IMG/VR virus record: IMGVR_UViG_3300025098_000358
Coordinates: 1-20,455 of that record
Strand: one strand, 5' to 3'
DNA length: 20,455 nucleotides
DNA from: a virus
Shown: positions 3,001 to 12,265 of the stretch, piece after piece
Layout: the number at the start of each line of letters is the position of its first letter
Numbering within the stretch: position 1 is the first letter of the stretch
Translations under genes and position numbers: made by a program
Notes under the pieces: generated by a model
Seen by the model: the letters and a program-made list of their open reading frames with translations, nothing else
Databases searched by the model: none
What the model was told of the DNA's origin: nothing

Positions 3001-5486
3001 CCGATGATGCGAGTGTTCTCGAAGTGGCCGTTAGGGACATCTACTTCGTTGATCTCAAAGTGTGTTGTGTTGCCTAGTGACGTGCCGGATGGGGCTTCGT
3101 ACTGATCTGCGCCACCCGTAATACACTCGTAAATCTTGTTGGTTGCTGCGTTCTTAACAAAGTCACCGCGCACGTATGCCGATGTCGTAGTGCTGCCAGC
3201 CTCTACATAGTAGATGCGAGCAACCTCAGTGAACTTAGAGCCAGTAAGCGCGTCACCGCTGGTTGTTACAAAGCTATTGCCTGAACCGGGTGTGGCCTCG
3301 TATACCAAGCCTGAGCCAGTGTTGATGACGTACTCGCCTTGGTGATACACGCGAGTCGTTGTTGTCGATGTCTCTTCTTGCTCATCGCCACGCACAAAGT
3401 ACGCAATGTTGGTTGCGCCTTTCTCTTGGATGACAGAGTTACGATAGTGAACCTCGCCTACGCCGATGTGTAGTCGGTAGTTTGACGCCCGCATATTACA
3501 GTTGTCGTAAATGATCGGAGCGACAGTTAGGCGGCTGATACCAGTGCCTTCGACGTACACACCTTCCGCATCCATATTACAGTTTTGGAATGTGATCTTG
3601 TCTTGCGTGTAGACCTCAATCCCGGTGTACGTTGTACCCAGAATGTGGCGCTTGATGTTAAAGAGGTTACAGTTAATAAACTCAACCTTGCCCGCAATGA
3701 TGTGTGACGCTCCGCCACGAGACTGCCAGTTTAGACAGTTGCCTTGCTTGGCTTGTCGTGGAGTAAAGTCGTCATTGTTGAAGCCATCAAAGACACAGTT
3801 AATCCATACCATGTCGGGTGCATAAGCCAGTGCATCCGTCTCTGACACGTTTGTGTAGAAGAATGCGTCTTGGTTATTGTGCGCCCAGTCACAGCTTTCG
3901 CCGTAGAGTTGGCCTTTCTTGGTCTGGTTGCTCCAAACAAGTACCTGCTTAGAGATATCTCGTATATCGCGTACCTTGAAGTCGCGCATATAGAGCGTGT
4001 CACCCCGGAAGTTAATCGCATCCAGAGCAATACCGTTAATCTCACAGTTTACGATGCTTGCCTTTGCTGCTTCCGTAGAGTCGTTGACGTTAATCGCATA
4101 GGCGTTTGGCATATTCTGGAACGTGACGCCTTCCACATGGAAGTGACCAGTCCCTTCAAACTCAATACCAGACTTGCTGAATACAGCGTTTATTAGGTAT
4201 GTGCCACCTGCCAGCTTGTTATCAGCAGACGGTACAGTTGTTGTTGAGACAACTTGGTGATCAAGCGTGATCGTTGTCGCTGTGGTTGACGCTACACGGT
4301 TAAAGTCGCCGCCAAGAGGCGCAGCCGCACGAGATACTGAGTTAGGCAGATAATCCAGCGACCAGCTAGATGAAACGATGTCATCAACAGCGAAGTTGTG
4401 GCCTGAGTCAACTGTGATAGTTGTTGGCTGTGAAGCAGTAGCGCCATTTACACGCGCAACCTTCCAGTTACCGTCAACAGTTGCACCGTCACCAACGATC
4501 GCAAAGTCAGTAACATTGTCCAAAACAATCTGTGCGTTGCTAGTTAGGTTCCATGTGTTGCCTTGGAACATCCATCGACGCGCTATACCGCCGACTGGGA
4601 ACGTCCAGTCCGCATCAATGTCCATGGTAGTGCCGCCAAACAAAATGACCTCAGCGGCGTTACAGGCGTTTGTAAGGGCAACAGAATCAGAGACAGGGCC
4701 ACTGCCATCTGGCGGGTTAATGTACTCGTTAATGTGAGCAATGCTTTCTACATCAATAGAGTCAATCTGCTCCTGAACATTTCCGGTTAGGCCATCCAGA
4801 TAGTTAAGCTCTGTGCCTGAGACAGTTACCGATGTTGAGTCAAGAGTAAACGGCGATGGAATTGTGACTGTGCCAGTGAATGTAGGACTATCAATCGGTG
4901 CCTTTGTTTCTAAATCAGCGCCAATCTCTTGCAGCGCACCCTCAACATTATCTGAATCGTAGTAATTACCAGCGTCATCAATCAATACTGAGTCAGCCGC
5001 CACCGTTGTTGTGGCAGTAGCAACAGTTACCGCGCCAGTATCGGTAAATCGCAGATACTTACTTGCACGAGTCGCCGCGTCTGGCAGCTCCATCGAGATA
5101 GAGTCTGAGTCAGTAATAGGCTTACGAACTGACTGTGAAAATGAGCGATCTGTCTGCTCGCCCGCTAACCACAACTCATCAAAGTCAGCATTAACTTCTG
5201 AGGCAAGGAAGTCGCCTGAGTTTGTGTAGTTCTGAGTGCGAGAGTAGGGCATATCACGGTAGAGCGTGATGATGTCATCGGCAGTTGCGCCAGTTGTCAG
5301 CGTGACGTTGCCGCCATTGTCATTGCCGACATTGGATACTGTGTAGTCAGTGCCTTCTGATAAGACCGTACCGTTCTGTAGAACAACGATGTGATCCTTG
5401 TCTACGATCTCAAACGTATAAGCGAATACTGTCTGTCCAGAAGTCGCTGTGTATTGGTTACGGCTTGTATTGTCTGAAACTGTCAC
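1..5486 (-). CDS. Giant tail fibre / tailspike protein (5' part; C-terminus runs off the left edge)
   Basis: The reading frame is open from a GTG at 5486 to the window edge, at least 1828 codons; I checked every line for in-frame stops and found none. The codon just before the GTG is TAA in the same frame, so GTG is the furthest possible start. A GGAGG lies 7 nt upstream, and GTG overlaps the TGA of the preceding gene (GTGA). Residues 1-122 match the T7 gp17 N-terminal virion-anchor domain (YTATSGQTVFAYTF, then VSNVG and NADFDELW patterns). Residues about 181-243 form a common fibre linker (PTFTGTVT, TELNYLDGLTGNV). Residues about 250-700 look like a right-handed beta-helix with short IVNCEI/FINCNLF/FQNCNM rungs, as in glycan-binding or depolymerising spikes. 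Residues about 700-813 resemble paired carbohydrate-binding modules (YHQGEYV, AYVRGDFV). Residues about 1060-1760 are repetitive NVGIGT fibre sequence, ending with a GTRWKDLYLSG motif common near fibre C-termini. Roughly three times T7 gp17. Structural identity is strong; enzyme activity is inference. Confidence 0.93.
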   Translation of the reverse strand, partial: MTVSDNTSRNQYTATSGQTVFAYTFEIVDKDHIVVLQNGTVLSEGTDYTVSNVGNDNGGNVTLTTGATADDIITLYRDMPYSRTQNYTNSGDFLASEVNADFDELWLAGEQTDRSFSQSVRKPITDSDSISMELPDAATRASKYLRFTDTGAVTVATATTTVAADSVLIDDAGNYYDSDNVEGALQEIGADLETKAPIDSPTFTGTVTIPSPFTLDSTSVTVSGTELNYLDGLTGNVQEQIDSIDVESIAHINEYINPPDGSGPVSDSVALTNACNAAEVILFGGTTMDIDADWTFPVGGIARRWMFQGNTWNLTSNAQIVLDNVTDFAIVGDGATVDGNWKVARVNGATASQPTTITVDSGHNFAVDDIVSSSWSLDYLPNSVSRAAAPLGGDFNRVASTTATTITLDHQVVSTTTVPSADNKLAGGTYLINAVFSKSGIEFEGTGHFHVEGVTFQNMPNAYAINVNDSTEAAKASIVNCEINGIALDAINFRGDTLYMRDFKVRDIRDISKQVLVWSNQTKKGQLYGESCDWAHNNQDAFFYTNVSETDALAYAPDMVWINCVFDGFNNDDFTPRQAKQGNCLNWQSRGGASHIIAGKVEFINCNLFNIKRHILGTTYTGIEVYTQDKITFQNCNMDAEGVYVEGTGISRLTVAPIIYDNCNMRASNYRLHIGVGEVHYRNSVIQEKGATNIAYFVRGDEQEETSTTTTRVYHQGEYVINTGSGLVYEATPGSGNSFVTTSGDALTGSKFTEVARIYYVEAGSTTTSAYVRGDFVKNAATNKIYECITGGADQYEAPSGTSLGNTTHFEINEVDVPNGHFENTRIIGNFDFVSSSDTVFDNLLLPYRSGLVVPHFERIYQENLDNKIVLEGATPTDATAINTEDWFTNGTSITDVPSLSIKIAGTDAIAEFGADESSQRELHFKLKARRFDSTVGATSPLPMKGAFLVDPLENSLVFATRRPGDVKRVTETHSAAVNAAASAGASSIVITNVASSTVPVVGDWVSLNNDGDSDVYFHEITAVSGTSPYTLTITPTLTEAITTSTNSYLIKHEYIYVHVADNGDVDIDGDLDVSGTVTAGGLSVNTADNTIAAFSSTDNRGAISISDDDTDSYIGSENGSTYISNAGGALSSGQIIIDSAGNVGIGNSPSRKLETSGNNNGGAKANYIRITDTDTSATLNNQQGGIEFYTSDSGNEGVTASIENLYAGSGAGSNLTINTAASGGAGATEKFRVDADGAVGVGTSSPGTYGGFTVQQASNSSSKGIAIVDSTAAQSIKLWANATYAYISSGNTGADPMILNTGGGSVRVGDIPATIDGNFAVRSNSNGHAVTIYEPTGGQENWQLGLNSVGDLGFYNSGSTTASVVFDDTGNVGIGTTSPNVHGWTKAVSLDSSTSAGYELNKSGVKTGAFAMQGDGRVQIINFTANPLTFNTNGSERMRIDSSGNVGIGTTAPTNAKLEVVASSGEVFRADASGGAYRIVANQTGVLMSGNVGIGTSSPATELHVDGKILTAGGSASSPALQLNDVNSGLFSAGGNTVAVSTDGSERMRIDSSGRLLVGTSSVGYSGVDLTVGDTADSQNGIAIQTSTTGYGYVLFGDGTGADAFRGQLYYKHGDDFMAMHTAGAERMRIDSSGNLLVGKTAVGVATDGFEARASGLTAMSDTSGAALNVNRNSTDGALAYFYKDGSTVGSIGSTSGVATHIILDPRSSVKGAGIVGGSASATEGVINSTDKTGAAQDGTISLGTSGTRWKDLYLSGAITSGSIDAAGESFFGGSLDIRLNSSASNSIFEGNSSSMAVRNNGSNNINYELGGANVRYTMNLSRFNAT
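545..2090 (-). repeat. Degenerate NVGIGT / ERMRID protein repeats in the tail fibre
   Basis: Seven imperfect repeats of the pattern DxxGNVGIGTxSP occur in the fibre, near 2080, 1785, 1385, 1160, 1020, 835 and 595. Three are preceded by ERMRIDSSG (residues 1437, 1547 and 1627). At DNA level a 23-base core, starting gagctgtcgatacgcatacg, recurs exactly at 586-608, 826-848 and 1156-1178. The first two copies share 26 bases (583-608, 823-848) and are exactly 240 nt (80 codons) apart. The 20-mer gtacctataccgacattgcc recurs at 997-1016, 1135-1154 and 1357-1376. Such repeats allow in-frame recombination that lengthens or shortens the fibre. Confidence 0.9.
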
Positions 5487-7804
5487 TTAAATGCCTCCGG
5501 TAATGGCTCTCCGGGTTCCCACCAGTAGCCTTGATCATAATCTCTCATTCGATTACGCATTATGCGATTATACTTTCTCTGAGCGTCTGGGTCAGCCATT
5601 AGCTCTAGTTGATCAAACATTGCATTCTTGGCTGTTTGAATTTGCCAAATGTCGGGTGTGTAACGCTCTGCAAAGTCTATAGTCTCACTGAAGATATGAG
5701 TTTCTTCTCCGCGTATAGCCTCTTGGATGTTGCCGATACTGAGTCGTGCCGCCCTGTTTACAAGATCACCAGTTGGCCCAAGTAATGTAGATGCCGGGCC
5801 TGATCCAAATCGGTTTTGGTCTGAAAATAAGAAGTCTCCAAAGATTCCAAGGCCACCGCCTTGTGCCATTGCCGCAACAACAAACTCTGGCTTTAGTACG
5901 CCATCATTATCCAGCATTGGTCTTGGCTCTCGACCTGCCGCCAAGTCTTTGGCTTGCAAAGTAATTCCGCCAAGTATTGTGGTGATTGCCATAAGGCCGC
6001 CAAAATACTGCAACTTCTTACCGGCAGTGTCTTGATAAAACATTCTCATCCCATGACCCATAAGGATCGTTATAGGGAATGATTTAAGTTGCATGACTGT
6101 TCGGATGCCCATGCCAGATACAGTGGCGCGTGACGTTCCCATAGTGGTTACAGCGCGAACTCTTGCATCTGGTGTAGGTACGGCAAAGTCAGTCTCAGAT
6201 AAAACCATCTGATGGAATTTAACGCCGCCTTCTTGCGTCATGTCAGCGTAAGGAGCGCCACGCAACATCAATGGCGGCTGCTTTCTGAACCCGTCCCAGT
6301 CTTGCTCGGTGATCCCGTATCTAGCAAAAGCGTCTTGCAATCCAGTTTCTAAGTTAGCGAATGACTTCTGAAAGTTATCAGCAAGCAAGGCAGAGAACTC
6401 CATGCCAAATGCTTTGCGGGCCGCGTTTGTCCATGCTTCTAAGCCTGAAGCTCGCATCACACCTTCGGCTAACTTTGCGGCCTTGCCTGTACCATAAGTG
6501 TCAGCGTATCTATTAGCCGCTGTCTGTCTTGCGGCGTTCTCAGCAGTCAAGCCAAGGCGAGTGCCAAATATGCGATCAGCCTCATTGTCTGGTCTCATAA
6601 GCGCCATCTGCTGGCGTATTACTTTAAGTGGTGCAATCCCGTTCATCTTTGCGGTCATCGCCACAAAGCCCGAATCACTAAGCGCAGAGATAAATGCACC
6701 GCCTAGCGTCACCGACGTAAGCACGTTACGGGTAGCCTCCAGCGCGTCCGCCGCACTTGTAAGCTCGCCTCCATTAACTTGACCTGCCGCAACCTTAAAG
6801 ACAGCATTGTTAAATGCTTCTTGTGGTCCGGTTAAATCTTCTTCCAGCTTTGCTTTGTTAATAAGAAAATCAAACGTATTATGGGGTGACGGGCCAAGTG
6901 TTTCCATGACTGCAATGTCGTTAGACATCATGTTGATATAGTCAGTTAGCGCATCAAAGACGTTACCGCGCCCAAAACGGTTTTGATACTTCATCCATGA
7001 ATCAGCATCTTTGAAGTATAAGAATCGCTTTTCTCCGCCCTTACGAGATAACTTTTTGCCTAGCCTTGGAACAGTTAGCCCCTTGGCTTTGTTCAAGCCG
7101 CCAGTGCTAATAGTCTCGTAAACAGCGTCAAGCGCCTCTTCAAACTGCTCATCACTTAGTGGACGACCAGCCTCATCAACCATAAACTCACGGTCAAGCA
7201 AATCCCTGATTGTTTCTTTCCATGTCTCCACGCCAGCCTTTTTGATTGATGCCTGATCATGTCGCTGTGGCATTAACCATCGCTCATTCTTAGAGATAGA
7301 GCCGCCACGCGCATTAAACAAAACACGCATCTGCTCGGCAGTCTCATGCCATGCATCGGCCATTGCCTTTATTTCTGGATCGTCTACGTCTTCTCGATAA
7401 ATAGCTTTGAGAAACTTGGCTAGTTCTTCCTCGTCCTGCTCAATACCGAACATCCGCGAACGAAACTTAGCCAGAGCCTCAGCATTCATGCTATGGAATT
7501 TGCCTTCGTAATACTTAGCAAGAAACTCGACGTTTTTATACTTGGCATTGCCACGAGGATCTTTAGTTAATAACGCTGTAATGCCAGCAGACATACCCTG
7601 TGGATGCGATTTAACAGAGTCGTATGCCTGAGATATGCGGACAGCTTGTATAGCCGTCTCACGCTTCTGGCGCGTTAGATTGCCAAGCACATCGTCAATG
7701 GCCTGATTGGGGTCATCAGAATCAAGAATTGCTTGCGCCACGTCCCTAGACAGGCGGTTCTGTGCAAGCGCCTCGTTGACACATCTTTCAAATCCGTTAG
7801 CCAA
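5483..7804 (-). CDS. Large internal virion / ejection protein, C-terminal partner (T7 gp16 position)
   Basis: About 773 aa. I prefer a TTG start at 7804 (protein begins MANGFERCVNEAL) because a GAGG lies 7 nt upstream; the longer GTG start at 7810 has its GAGG only one base away. The start overlaps the TAA of the 808-aa gene, so the two are probably coupled. The protein is mostly helical and charged in its first half, with long stretches such as EDVDDPEIKAMADAWHE. Its second half has Gly/Ala-rich, weakly hydrophobic segments around residues 595-620 (QYFGGLMAITTILGGITL) and 640-670. The end, from about residue 700, is acidic/aromatic with DYDQGYWWEPGE. Place (after gp14- and gp15-like genes, before the fibre) argues for an inner-core protein ejected with the DNA. 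I recognise no enzyme motif. Together with the previous gene it totals about 1580 aa, near T7 gp16 (1318 aa), so gp16 may be split in two here. Confidence 0.75.
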   Translation of the reverse strand: MANGFERCVNEALAQNRLSRDVAQAILDSDDPNQAIDDVLGNLTRQKRETAIQAVRISQAYDSVKSHPQGMSAGITALLTKDPRGNAKYKNVEFLAKYYEGKFHSMNAEALAKFRSRMFGIEQDEEELAKFLKAIYREDVDDPEIKAMADAWHETAEQMRVLFNARGGSISKNERWLMPQRHDQASIKKAGVETWKETIRDLLDREFMVDEAGRPLSDEQFEEALDAVYETISTGGLNKAKGLTVPRLGKKLSRKGGEKRFLYFKDADSWMKYQNRFGRGNVFDALTDYINMMSNDIAVMETLGPSPHNTFDFLINKAKLEEDLTGPQEAFNNAVFKVAAGQVNGGELTSAADALEATRNVLTSVTLGGAFISALSDSGFVAMTAKMNGIAPLKVIRQQMALMRPDNEADRIFGTRLGLTAENAARQTAANRYADTYGTGKAAKLAEGVMRASGLEAWTNAARKAFGMEFSALLADNFQKSFANLETGLQDAFARYGITEQDWDGFRKQPPLMLRGAPYADMTQEGGVKFHQMVLSETDFAVPTPDARVRAVTTMGTSRATVSGMGIRTVMQLKSFPITILMGHGMRMFYQDTAGKKLQYFGGLMAITTILGGITLQAKDLAAGREPRPMLDNDGVLKPEFVVAAMAQGGGLGIFGDFLFSDQNRFGSGPASTLLGPTGDLVNRAARLSIGNIQEAIRGEETHIFSETIDFAERYTPDIWQIQTAKNAMFDQLELMADPDAQRKYNRIMRNRMRDYDQGYWWEPGEPLPEAFK
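5484..5499 (-). promoter_or_regulatory. Ribosome site and GTGA start/stop overlap of the fibre gene
   Basis: GGAGG followed 7 nt later by GTG (minus strand: GGAGGCATTTAAGTGA) fixes the start of the fibre. The G of the upstream gene's last codon and its TGA stop overlap the start codon, so the fibre is likely translated by coupling to the ejection protein. Confidence 0.8.
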
Positions 7805-10223
7805 GAGCACACCTCAATACGTCTTCAATGTTTTTAATCTCGTCATCAATGGGCTTCATCTCAGCCTCAGCAACTTCAAGTATCTCTTGCATAATAGGGT
7901 CATCAGTAATTCGCGCTCTTACAGGCGGCTGAGTAATAACACCCTCTGCCGATACCCAGTCAGGCATTAAGCCCATTTTCTGATCTGCAAATACAGTTTC
8001 TAAAGTTCCAGCCGTTCGGTTGGTCTCACCATACGGCCCATAATTCAGCCAACTGTTCTGGCCTCTTGTTTCTGTAGTCAGTGCGCGTCTAGCTGGACCA
8101 GTGAATAACTGCATATGCGCTTGGAATGCGTTTTCTTCGCCACGCGCCCTAAAGCCAGCACCCTCAAGAGAGTGACCAAAAGCATCATGCACAGCGCGGA
8201 ATAAATCGTTATTAGTAACAACTTGCTCTTTACCGTTTTGATCTTTCCATCGTAGCCCGCTGTCTTGGAGCAAGATTCTGTTTGGATCGGCTAAACTTTC
8301 TTTGAACTGCTCGAGCGTACCAAAGCCGTCATACGTACCATAGACAGCCATGCGCTTATTCTTTCGCAGATCGCGTATAGCGTTATAAGGGCTTGTATTA
8401 TACGGATCGGTTTTGCCGTCATAGAACGTAAACTCGTAGCCGTCTTCAATAAGTGCGTCGTATTGAGCGCGGGTTTGATTAACTAAGTCTCGATAGGCTT
8501 CTTGTACTGCGGGATCAGAAGGATTGTCCTCCATATCCTCAAAGGCTTGAGCTATACGCCGCGCCCGGTCTTCATCAACCTCTACGTATTCTGCTTGTCG
8601 AGAGAAGGGGATTCCATTGGCTCTAGCGTATTTTTCTGCGGCGCTAGTGATTCTGAGGTCTGGGCCTGTTGCGCCTTCAACTTCTGGCGCTCCTTCGAGT
8701 AGTTGCTCGCGTGGAATTTGATCCGCTGGCGGCGCAGTAACTCGCTCCTGATCGCGTCGTCTTCTGTCTCCGGGGCGTTCGGGTCGTACTTCATCGGCTG
8801 TCCTTAGATTGTTAAACGCTTCAATATCGGCGTCGAAATCTTCTGCAATGCCATTCCTGACAAGTATATCACGTTGGCGTTCTGTAGTCGTTTGTGGTGC
8901 GGCCTTCTGTGGCTGTGGTTCTTCGTACTTAGCCGGTATTTTTGAAGGCTGGTCATACATCTCGCTTCGGGTTTCTCGCTCCGAAAGGAACTGTATGTCT
9001 TGGTTGATTTCTTGCTCAATCAAAATCTCATTGAGACGGCGCTCATACAGGGGTGGAATAACTCCCTGCTTGATTCGATCTAAGTCGCCAAACGCGTCTC
9101 GCGCCACATCGTCTTGGCGCAACATCTCTTGAATCCGGGTAACACGGTCTGACAGACCTGCTTGTTGCTCTTGTGCAAGTTCTTCACCGCGCTCAATAGC
9201 ACGCCTCTTCGCTACTCGGGCAGGTACTCCACGCTCCTTGATAACTTCCTCGGGAACGTCTGAGATCCTTTCTAGCCTAAACTCAAGGTCTTTTAGCTCA
9301 GATCTAAGAGCCTTGCGCTCGCCAGCCTCTAATCGGTTGCCAGCGGTAGCGGTTAGCTCCTCAGTAACTTCTCGCAAAAACTCAGCTTGGACAACATCTC
9401 GGTCAATAGGAGGAATGTCGCCACGCGCTCTAGCAATGTCTAAGTCTTCGATAAGCCGTTCATTAGCCTCTCGAACCATTGCTTCTGGCGTATCAGGCTG
9501 AACAGCGCCAAGCTCATCGGCCTTGCTGTTGACCGCTCGAAGGTATCCAGCCAAACCACCCGCTATACCCCCTAACACAGCGCCTCCTACTGCCGCTGTA
9601 GCGATGTTCGCAAGCGCCTCTTGTGCTGAGTAGGGTGATTCAATATCGAGCTTGTGAGTGTATACAAGTGGCTGTATGGCTAGTTCTGTTGCCGCCGCAA
9701 TGCCAGCTTCAGCTTTGGCAACACGCATTGCATTGGCGGTCACCCCTAAACCTCGGGCGGTTGTTAGCGCCGCGCCTGTACCCATGGTCACAATGCTGAT
9801 CGGATCGAGCATGAATGCAGTCATAGAGCCTACAAACTGAGCCATTCCGCTTCCACGGGATATAACGTCTTGCGCGTATTCTCTGCGCTTACGTAACTTC
9901 TCATTACGCCGCTCGCGTAGCTCTTCATCGGTTGCAAGCAAGCCTGTGTCCTTGGCTATACGGTCGTAATCTATCCGGCCACGTCGGTCGGTATATGGGC
10001 CTCTATCAAACCCGTCATCGACCATGCCACGCAATGCGGCCTGACGCTCGGCATACATTTCGTTATTTAAGGCACTAGAGATCGACAACTCCTCATCAAT
10101 CACAAGGCCAAGAGACGCGCCAAAGACCTCGCCAAATGATGACTCAATAACCAAGTCGTCTGGAGTAAACAGCCTGTATGACTGCTCAAACTCTCGCTTA
10201 CCTTTTTCCGTAACAAACGGCAT
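7797..10223 (-). CDS. Large internal virion / ejection protein with membrane-active N-half and C-terminal HDxFGH module
   Basis: 808 aa, ATG at 10223, starting 2 nt after the TAA of the gp15-like gene; the ribosome site is weak, which suggests coupling. Residues 1-125 are charged with an Arg/Glu-rich helix (95-118). Two hydrophobic Gly/Ala-rich segments follow at about 126-158 and 204-229 (GGAVLGGIAGGLAGYL), typical of phage ejection proteins that enter membranes. Residues about 240-500 are low-complexity, charged and Pro/Arg/Glu-rich, likely coiled or disordered. Residues about 560-770 form a compact module with conserved-looking residues: HDAFGH (679-684), GEEN then H703, TTETRGQNSW (716-725) and ADQKMGLMP. 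This module looks like an independent domain, perhaps metal-binding or enzymatic, but I cannot name its activity. No lytic transglycosylase motif is visible, unlike the T7 gp16 N-terminus. Virion role is from place and composition. Confidence 0.75.
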   Translation of the reverse strand: MPFVTEKGKREFEQSYRLFTPDDLVIESSFGEVFGASLGLVIDEELSISSALNNEMYAERQAALRGMVDDGFDRGPYTDRRGRIDYDRIAKDTGLLATDEELRERRNEKLRKRREYAQDVISRGSGMAQFVGSMTAFMLDPISIVTMGTGAALTTARGLGVTANAMRVAKAEAGIAAATELAIQPLVYTHKLDIESPYSAQEALANIATAAVGGAVLGGIAGGLAGYLRAVNSKADELGAVQPDTPEAMVREANERLIEDLDIARARGDIPPIDRDVVQAEFLREVTEELTATAGNRLEAGERKALRSELKDLEFRLERISDVPEEVIKERGVPARVAKRRAIERGEELAQEQQAGLSDRVTRIQEMLRQDDVARDAFGDLDRIKQGVIPPLYERRLNEILIEQEINQDIQFLSERETRSEMYDQPSKIPAKYEEPQPQKAAPQTTTERQRDILVRNGIAEDFDADIEAFNNLRTADEVRPERPGDRRRRDQERVTAPPADQIPREQLLEGAPEVEGATGPDLRITSAAEKYARANGIPFSRQAEYVEVDEDRARRIAQAFEDMEDNPSDPAVQEAYRDLVNQTRAQYDALIEDGYEFTFYDGKTDPYNTSPYNAIRDLRKNKRMAVYGTYDGFGTLEQFKESLADPNRILLQDSGLRWKDQNGKEQVVTNNDLFRAVHDAFGHSLEGAGFRARGEENAFQAHMQLFTGPARRALTTETRGQNSWLNYGPYGETNRTAGTLETVFADQKMGLMPDWVSAEGVITQPPVRARITDDPIMQEILEVAEAEMKPIDDEIKNIEDVLRCALG

Positions 10224-10225
10224 TG

Positions 10226-12265
10226 TTATCGACCAGTATTACGCCGCGACCTTCGCGGTGCCATTTCGCTTACAACCGATTCATCGTACTTAAAGGTAAA
10301 TGGGTTGCCGTTTTTGTTAATTAATTTAGCGTTATCACGAATTACCAAGTTGTATTCGTTCTTGTTGTTTGGGACGCTGACAACGCGAGCATTTTGAATT
10401 TGCTTAATAGCTTGGCGAGTGGTCATCCCGCCTATACCACCATACGTTTCAAGCCAATCCTCATTGACTCTATCAAGCATCTTCTCAAACTGATTTTCTG
10501 TCACATCTCTTGGCAGTTGATACTTGCCTTTGTTGAATGTGCCAATCCCGCCGGTAATAGCCGCCAATGAGTCTTCGAATACACCTGATTGAAACCCTTT
10601 GCTGGGGTCTGGGTTGCTTTGAACATAATGGTTAAGAGCGGCTTCAATTACTAACCCACGATCTGACGATGGGTAAACTTCACCAACTGGCCCTAAGTAA
10701 TCATCAGCTACGCCTATGTAGTCTTGGAATGAAGGCATCTTTGCCTGACCTGTTGCCACCATCTCTTGGCCTTTGAAGGCTGTTTTTTGCACTGTGACAT
10801 CATTGGTTGCGCCAATCTCTGAAAACAACGGATTGCCAACTTTGCTAATTATGTCCCAAACTGCCGGGTCTTGGTTAAGGCTTTGAGCTATGCTTGTTTT
10901 TTCTTTAAAGGTCATTTCTTCAAGAATATCGCTAAACGCATCAGCTTCCGCGTCAGTCATTGCCGGTATATCGCGCCCATAGTGAATAGATGCCTTCTTG
11001 GCCTCAGATACTCTATCAATCCATGATTGAGGATCGCTCATATCAAGTGGCACGTCAGACACTATGCCCTGCTTAATAGCAAAGCCCATTGGGTCTTTAT
11101 TTAGCTGAGTGTTTATGCCGTTCTGGGCTTTTTCAAGTGCGGCTACCCTATCTGCATCCTCAAGACTTATTGCATCCGCCTGTGTTAATACAGCAGATCG
11201 CTGTGACGCAGACATCAAAGCAAAACTGCCAACTTCTTCACCAAGTTGGAATTCATCTTCGTACTCAGTGCCGACAACGGCAGTCGCAAGCTCTTTTGCT
11301 TCAGCGGGATCAACTTTTACACCAAGCGATACAGCAGTTAAGTAGTCGCCTACCTGCTCTTTAAGCGCATCATTTGCGGCTTTGGTTGACGCTTCAAATA
11401 TGGATTTTTGACGTGATACTGTTTGAGCAGTCGCATACTTCCAAGCATCCCATTCAGCGGCTTCAAACTGATCAGGTCTTTCGGCATCAGCAATTAAGCC
11501 ATATGCCGTACCAAAATCATTAGCATCCATAGACTGCCGGACTTCGCGCATGATTGCGCCAGTAGCAAGGCTTTGCTCTACGCTCTTAGTAATAGAATCG
11601 GTGTAACCTGCCTTTACATCTCCAGCATCTTCAAGAGCGCGAGCCGATGAAACTGCCTCTATGCCAAGTTGTTCGGCGTGAGAAACATCGCCTTCTTGAG
11701 ACTCAGTGGATATCTGTAATAACTTGTTGTCGATGTTGTTGGTAGTGGTATCAACCGCAACAGCCCTAGCTCGCTTGCGGCCTAGCTCTGCAACTCTTAC
11801 GCCATTACGCTCAAACGCCTCATCGTAAACAGAGCGGAGCATTGGTTGGAATCGCTCATCGACGTTTTGCGATAAGCCTTGAAAGTATTTGTTGGCATTT
11901 TGCGAGAACTGCTCAAAGTCACCATCTGACTCTACATTAAAACGATCAACAGCCGACCGTATGTCTGAGGTAACTTCGTTGATATATGCGTTTTCTACGG
12001 TCTGGTTGAATGACTGGTCATATATGCTGATAGCACTTAACAAGCCCTCTTTGATCTCGGGTGATCGGCCCTCTTCTGCCGCCGCCAGTGCTTCCGCCGA
12101 TGCGTCTTCAATAGCCTTTCTTTTTTGGATGCGACCGCCAACCTCAAACGCAATGTCTCCGACCTGTTCAGCCAAGCCAGAAAGAGCCTGCAAGCGTTTA
12201 GCCTGAGACGTATCTACACCTGTTGGTGTAAACCTGCCGTAGTAATCAATGCGCTTCTGAGCCAT
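10226..12265 (-). CDS. Internal virion protein, T7 gp15-like
   Basis: 679 aa, ATG at 12265 with an AAGGA site 7 nt upstream, 10 nt after the previous gene. It is a long, almost wholly helical, acidic protein rich in Ala, Glu, Asp and Gln, with no Cys evident and no membrane segment. The N-terminus (IDYYGRFTPTGVDTSQAKRL) and the repeated helix-rich layout fit the middle inner-core protein of T7-like virions (gp15, 747 aa), which forms the periplasmic part of the DNA ejection channel. The C-terminal tail is strongly basic (APRRSRRNTGR). The assignment rests on gene order (between the gp14-like and the gp16-like genes), length and composition rather than on a diagnostic motif. It could also be a general phage structural protein of unknown function. 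Confidence 0.75.
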   Translation of the reverse strand: MAQKRIDYYGRFTPTGVDTSQAKRLQALSGLAEQVGDIAFEVGGRIQKRKAIEDASAEALAAAEEGRSPEIKEGLLSAISIYDQSFNQTVENAYINEVTSDIRSAVDRFNVESDGDFEQFSQNANKYFQGLSQNVDERFQPMLRSVYDEAFERNGVRVAELGRKRARAVAVDTTTNNIDNKLLQISTESQEGDVSHAEQLGIEAVSSARALEDAGDVKAGYTDSITKSVEQSLATGAIMREVRQSMDANDFGTAYGLIADAERPDQFEAAEWDAWKYATAQTVSRQKSIFEASTKAANDALKEQVGDYLTAVSLGVKVDPAEAKELATAVVGTEYEDEFQLGEEVGSFALMSASQRSAVLTQADAISLEDADRVAALEKAQNGINTQLNKDPMGFAIKQGIVSDVPLDMSDPQSWIDRVSEAKKASIHYGRDIPAMTDAEADAFSDILEEMTFKEKTSIAQSLNQDPAVWDIISKVGNPLFSEIGATNDVTVQKTAFKGQEMVATGQAKMPSFQDYIGVADDYLGPVGEVYPSSDRGLVIEAALNHYVQSNPDPSKGFQSGVFEDSLAAITGGIGTFNKGKYQLPRDVTENQFEKMLDRVNEDWLETYGGIGGMTTRQAIKQIQNARVVSVPNNKNEYNLVIRDNAKLINKNGNPFTFKYDESVVSEMAPRRSRRNTGR

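Follow-up and report, generated by a model that had tools for sequence, protein, structure and literature searches.

The predicted ejection protein and its setting

The window, by which we mean the whole stretch of viral DNA analyzed (20,455 nucleotides), encodes portal-sized, scaffold- and capsid-sized, and tail tube proteins, followed by products of 157, 679, 808, and 775 amino acids (aa) and, last, an open-ended tail fiber of 1828 aa. This order fits that of a T7-like podovirus. The features relevant here are the following.

10226..12265, complement strand: preceding gene, 679 aa, in a gp15-like position among the internal virion proteins (gene order only)
7797..10223, complement strand: 808-aa protein, predicted internal virion (ejection) protein with the module near its C terminus (ORF, PHROG_342, gene order)
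8724..10223, complement strand: residues 1-500 of that protein (N-terminal), the ejection-protein region, which has hydrophobic segments and a middle of low complexity (BLAST coverage, PHROG_342)
7953..8669, complement strand: conserved HDxFGH module, residues 519-757 (tblastn, BLAST coverage, AlphaFold model)
8172..8210, complement strand: motif 1, NDLFRAVHDAFGH, residues 672-684, helix; H679, D680, and H684 invariant (alignments, DSSP)
8115..8141, complement strand: motif 2, GEENAFQAH, residues 695-703, helix; E696 invariant, H703 in 81/82 (alignments)
8049..8078, complement strand: motif 3, TTETRGQNSW, residues 716-725, helix; E718 in 81/82, Q722 in 82/82 (alignments)
7962..7988, complement strand: motif 4, ADQKMGLMP, residues 746-754; K749 invariant where covered (alignments)
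5483..7810, complement strand: next gene, 775-aa virion structural protein (PHROG_684, E=6e-155)

The 808-aa protein resembles T7 gp16-like internal virion proteins in its N-terminal part and in its position between the tail tube and fiber genes. PHROG_342 ("internal virion protein") matches its residues 48 to 372 (E=1.8e-6), and full-length counterparts of residues 1 to 500 were found, as judged by BLAST coverage, only in near-identical viruses. The 775-aa gene shares 14 bases with the 3' end of its 808-aa neighbor. The preceding 679-aa protein gave no strong family match. Because of the T7-like gene order and the PHROG_342 and PHROG_684 matches, we read the 808-aa protein as ejected, and it probably enters the host together with the viral genome. 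An initial annotation had already supposed such an entry, and gene order together with the PHROG_342 match makes this a well-supported prediction.

A conserved module with active-site-like residues

Matches to annotated phages (tblastn) were limited to residues ~499 to 785; they reach E=6e-89 and lie in proteins with no other relation to this one. BLAST coverage reached 200 to 238 of 241 segments at the points sampled between residues 551 and 751, against 3 to 8 per point between residues 1 and 451. Since both signals are confined to this region, we take residues 519 to 757 as the unit of conservation, which leaves the C-terminal ~50 residues outside the module. The initial annotation had described a conserved C-terminal region at 7900-8560; the region is real, but the module begins about 110 bases upstream of that interval. 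The motifs it listed are present in the ORF translation, namely HDAFGH at 679-684, TTETRGQNSW at 716-725, and ADQKMGLMP at 746-754, as is GEEN...H, which ends at 703 and starts at residue 695, not 696 as first given.

The module is conserved, according to these alignments, far beyond chance. Comparison with a relative 94% identical gave a dN/dS of ~0.07. An alignment of 82 members has N672, D673, F675, R676, V678, H679, D680, H684, G695, E696, Q722, and K749 invariant, with H703 and E718 each kept in 81/82. Some of these residues lie within the motifs that served as patterns in the viral and genome scans, and the invariance was therefore re-tested on 13 homologues (window included) obtained by tblastn/BLAST or HMM and not by motif pattern. 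All 13 carry N672, D673, F675, R676, V678, H679, D680, H684, G688, F691, G695, E696, A699, H703, E718, T719, and Q722, and K749 is present in 12/12 where aligned. Hence, the five residues singled out at the start (H679, D680, H684, H703, and E718) are indeed invariant in homologues from unrelated contexts. Copies on plasmids have G683 altered and the histidines kept.

The AlphaFold model of the module is a compact single domain (pLDDT 93.8, pTM 0.91), in which DSSP places the residues of motifs 1 to 3 on three consecutive predicted helices (671-685, 693-704, and 711-728). The suggestion of an active-site-like domain thus finds support in the invariance across unrelated contexts and in a compact, confident model. 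An active site is the probable role of the invariant residues (H-D-x3-H / GE / H / E-T-x-G-Q / K), and a metal center with two His and a Glu is its likeliest form. We consider it very probable that the module is a real enzyme, and rather likely that it depends on a metal.

The initial annotation assigned the region to no known family, and sequence and fold searches alike bore this out. The 808-aa protein had no significant match by sequence in Pfam, NCBIfam, or the PDB, a profile of the 82 module members had none in the PDB, and Foldseek retrieved no PDB fold match for the module (best E=0.45, prob 0.04). Weak Pfam matches to Zeta_toxin in 4/82 members (best E=0.0087) were judged to be due to chance. 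A fold search of viral proteins returned 21 proteins without assigned function that match the module model at E<0.001. On the evidence of its sequences, the module is a mobile domain of a new, previously unannotated family.

Spread of the family

The motif-seeded scan gave at least 592 confirmed viral loci and 62 bacterial or prophage loci. Viral copies mostly lie within proteins of 2,000 to 4,000 aa, and these giant proteins also hold ART, InPase, and LPD38 domains; the module is a new domain among polyvalent/ejected phage effectors. In bacteria, where wider genome sampling indicates that the family is rare (1/248 and 3/247 genomes in two orders), copies often stand alone as genes of 220 to 285 aa. 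Actinobacterial plasmids, from Microbacterium and Arthrobacter pAL1, encode copies in proteins of ~450 to 470 aa, one of them near an ArdC-like anti-restriction gene. In Rhodococcus phage E3, the "putative aminotransferase" gp206 (L160:6259-7518) was considered as an operon partner and set aside, as it has no Pfam aminotransferase match.

Homology to early proteins of T7-like Pseudomonas phages

The viral fold search also gave a weak pointer to LKA1 gp07 (E=0.08, prob 0.97). When the LKA1 genome is scored with the module HMM, this protein also ranks first among its frames, at an E value (~0.07) that is not significant alone. When a seven-row alignment of early proteins was compared with the module profile, hhalign gave a probability of 95.3 (E=2.4e-8) over 129 columns, which take in NxxFRxxHD-GH, the Glu, and TxxQ; with only the cellular module members the result was similar (prob 95.5, E=1.5e-8). 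NxxFRxxHD, the second His, the Glu, and [E/D]TxxQ occupy homologous positions across the HDxFGH family, T7-like early proteins included. By these profile comparisons, the module shares ancestry with an early-protein family of T7-like Pseudomonas phages, which has 123 phage records, mostly from Pseudomonas phages. Among the genomes checked, two have it as the first gene, Issaku (bases 609-1109) and Pf-10 (588-1070), a place taken in T3 by the SAM lyase gene (901-1359). In the others it ranks second (phi15), fifth (JOR), or seventh (LKA1 and KSC).

Gene partners of the bacterial copies

Three groups of bacterial copies have recurrent neighbors. In group A (Bacteroidota, Ruegeria, and the BD1-7 clade), an SAH-hydrolase-like gene is adjacent at 8/8 loci (7 genomes), with a phmmer match of 5.6e-12 to PDB adenosylhomocysteinase, and DUF3293 occurs in 7/8 loci, either as a separate gene or, in the BD1-7 clade, fused to the module. 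The SAH-hydrolase-like partner, an NAD-binding protein (L102:4793-5848 and equivalents), is shortened to ~350 aa and likely has an activity other than that of SAH hydrolase. In group B, the copies of Actinomycetes and Paraburkholderia, 10/12 loci combine a SufS-like class V aminotransferase and a Cys/Met PLP enzyme with a methyltransferase and/or a homocysteine S-methyltransferase, and four of the 12 have an SAH hydrolase. The group B cluster is conserved at L110, L113, L117, L122, L127, and L144-L147. Group C (Micromonosporaceae) has a divergent N6 DNA methylase with a specificity region at every locus (25/25), along with a protein kinase (23/25), a UvrD helicase (20/25), and Cas3 (19/25). 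The group C island (L111-L143) includes a Ser/Thr kinase and a type I-E-like Cas3 beside apparent CRISPR repeats, and this conserved island is possibly an undescribed methylase-linked defense system.

These associations suggest that the bacterial partners of the module agree on the use, recycling, and cleavage of S-adenosylmethionine (SAM). Within the 20-kb window, no SAM-related gene was recognized and the DUF3293 profile had no match.

DUF3293 as a likely relative of SAM lyases

DUF3293 (PF11697) is also a partner of the module in phages. A DUF3293-like domain lies in the same chain as the module in 7 phage/prophage-type proteins, 11 to 96 residues after it in four of them (L003, L028, L199, and L241); in most module-bearing phage proteins DUF3293 was undetectable. 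Of six DUF3293 members, three weakly match Pfam S-AdoMet_lyase, and hhalign with T3-type SAM lyases gives 63.6%, or 86.6% after adding viral members; the DUF3293 loci aligned were L102, L104-L108, L103, L241, and L199. In the Foldseek search with the DUF3293 model (pLDDT 89.4), phage SAM lyases take ranks 1 (6zm9, prob 0.97), 2, and 12, and 6znb is also among the top matches. The sequence and model comparisons are strong but not conclusive evidence that DUF3293 has the SAM-lyase fold, a grade that we keep because the Foldseek E values are modest (best 0.017). The module itself is not a SAM lyase: hhalign with PF23780 gives 0.1%, and the folds are unrelated. Our literature search found no publication on DUF3293.

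Two viral DUF3293-like queries were run on the annotated phage set. The first matched only two module-bearing cyanophages; the second matched the same two and 68 records of one Flavobacterium phage group. Viral scans with the DUF3293-like domain, alignment based or single query, were too weak to give a background frequency. In the Flavobacterium phages vB_FspP_elemo (H195-H254), a DUF3293-like domain lies within an annotated structural protein, and virions may therefore contain a domain with the SAM-lyase fold. As a separate observation, the T3 gene 0.3 SAM lyase (L169:901-1359) is mislabeled "SAM-dependent methyltransferase" in its phage record, as are many relatives.

Proposed function and alternative explanations

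Since the partner genes agree on SAM use, recycling, and cleavage, we propose that the module is a metal-dependent SAM/SAH enzyme. Phages have it in large, predicted ejected virion proteins or as an early gene, plasmids have it as a separate protein, and some bacteria as a standalone gene. Judging by the partners, its likeliest substrate is SAM or a compound formed when SAM is used, such as SAH, methylthioadenosine, homocysteine, or homoserine lactone. On arrival with the phage DNA, the module would deplete or redirect SAM by the time the host runs its first reactions that depend on methylation or SAM, or while it runs them, thereby blunting restriction-modification, BREX-like, or other methyl-dependent defenses. 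This would be akin to the T3 SAM lyase, which changes the SAM pool of the cell. In infected cells the T3 enzyme is made before any other phage protein, and it converts SAM to MTA and homoserine lactone, although its original anti-restriction reading was later disputed (PMC8406200). Injected anti-restriction proteins are known from T4 (PMC12373910).

The position of module relatives beside genes of SAM use, recycling, and destruction suggests that the module attacks the methyl metabolism of the host early in infection. From these neighborhoods, we put a substrate from the SAM cycle at even chances, and the full proposal, a catalytic domain that acts in SAM/SAH metabolism and is ejected to blunt methylation-dependent host processes, slightly below that. 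A counter-defense role in the phage is more tentative still. Several points speak against the SAM reading: the module is unrelated to SAM lyase, the window has no recognized SAM-related gene, DUF3293 was undetectable in most module-bearing phage proteins, the association with partners names no reaction, an early position in T7-like phages suits many takeover functions, and the anti-restriction role of the T3 enzyme is disputed.

The best-surviving alternative, which we hold to be unlikely though far from negligible, is an injected or early effector enzyme acting on another host target (nucleic acid, protein, or another small molecule), the company of SAM genes in bacteria being incidental. Polyvalent phage proteins do carry many unrelated effector domains (PMC5512222), the giant module-bearing proteins have ART, InPase, and LPD38 domains among them, and active-site-like conservation does not reveal a substrate. 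However, three independent bacterial groups and the phage fusions all indicate SAM chemistry, and the DUF3293 partner appears to have a SAM-lyase fold.

The module could also be a distant non-heme iron oxygenase of the aromatic amino acid hydroxylase type, its HDxFGH and the Glu ~34 residues further on forming the same iron site (HDxFGH/HExxGH ... E). Bacterial phenylalanine hydroxylases indeed read HDLFGH or HDVFGH at their iron site, with a conserved Glu ~40 residues on. Yet hhalign with these hydroxylases (PF00351) spans 11 residues (prob 19%), the homologous early-protein family gives 2%, no hydroxylase is among the Foldseek PDB matches listed, there is no Pfam match, and E696, H703, Q722, and K749 have no counterpart. 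We thus consider this relationship improbable and reject homology, the likeness being that of the HDxFGH motif only, over 11 columns and with no fold match. The motif spacing by itself would fit a 2-His-1-Glu iron site with pterin use, and convergent metal chemistry is possible.

We give an equally low chance to a non-catalytic, metal-stabilized domain with a structural or binding role in the virion or ejectosome: the module does occur in virion proteins, and the module-bearing gp205 of Rhodococcus phage E3 is annotated as structural, but the copies that stand alone, whether in metabolic operons of bacteria, on plasmids, or as early phage genes, have no virion to serve, and the strictest invariance falls on charged and polar motif residues. 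Very improbable is a peptidase that processes the large virion proteins in the manner of polyvalent-protein zincin domains. In its favor, the motifs are rich in His and Glu and processing peptidases are common in polyvalent proteins (PMC5512222), but the motif is HDxxGH and not HExxH, Pfam and the PDB give no zincin match, and free-standing copies lie in metabolic operons.

A bolder form of the SAM proposal, which we regard as speculative and less probable than the proposal itself, is that the module is the founding member of a metalloenzyme superfamily that is new and whose fold the PDB lacks, made up of ejected virion domains, T7-like first-gene proteins, plasmid proteins, and bacterial SAM-cycle genes, and that with DUF3293 it forms a two-enzyme kit destroying or diverting SAM. 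Some phages would then inject a SAM-depleting activity with their DNA, without waiting for expression.

An anonymous stretch of phage protein is now a defined, widespread domain with testable chemistry. The uncharacterized first genes of T7-like phages are tied to ejected proteins, and DUF3293 can now be seen as a likely relative of SAM lyases. Should the module act on SAM, this would be an injected counter-defense directed at a metabolite and not at a defense protein.

Comparison with known systems

The aromatic amino acid hydroxylases (Biopterin_H) have in common with the module HDxFGH and a Glu 34 to 41 residues later, with homology not extending beyond 11 residues. The polyvalent phage proteins with LPD38, ART-PolyVal, and InPase architectures (PMC5512222) are multidomain proteins of the kind that carries the module; unlike their domains, the module has no Pfam match, although Pfam holds LPD and other polyvalent-protein models. 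The 433-aa protein of Bxz1-type mycobacteriophages (PHROG_3170) shares the module (E=1.3e-13) but has another C-terminal part and is encoded by its own gene in a myovirus. The early proteins of T7-like Pseudomonas phages (160 to 190 aa; LKA1 gp07, phi15 ORF2, and Pf-10 p01) have NxxFRxxHD(x)GH, the Glu, and [E/D]TxxQ in common with the module. They differ from the module in being compact, in a His-to-His gap one or two residues shorter, and in often having Asp for E718, and they are uncharacterized products of first or early genes, outside virion proteins. Finally, the phage SAM lyases (T3 gp0.3 and Svi3-3) have neither sequence nor fold in common with the HDxFGH module, but they share its proposed pathway and early timing, and its partner DUF3293 appears to have their fold.
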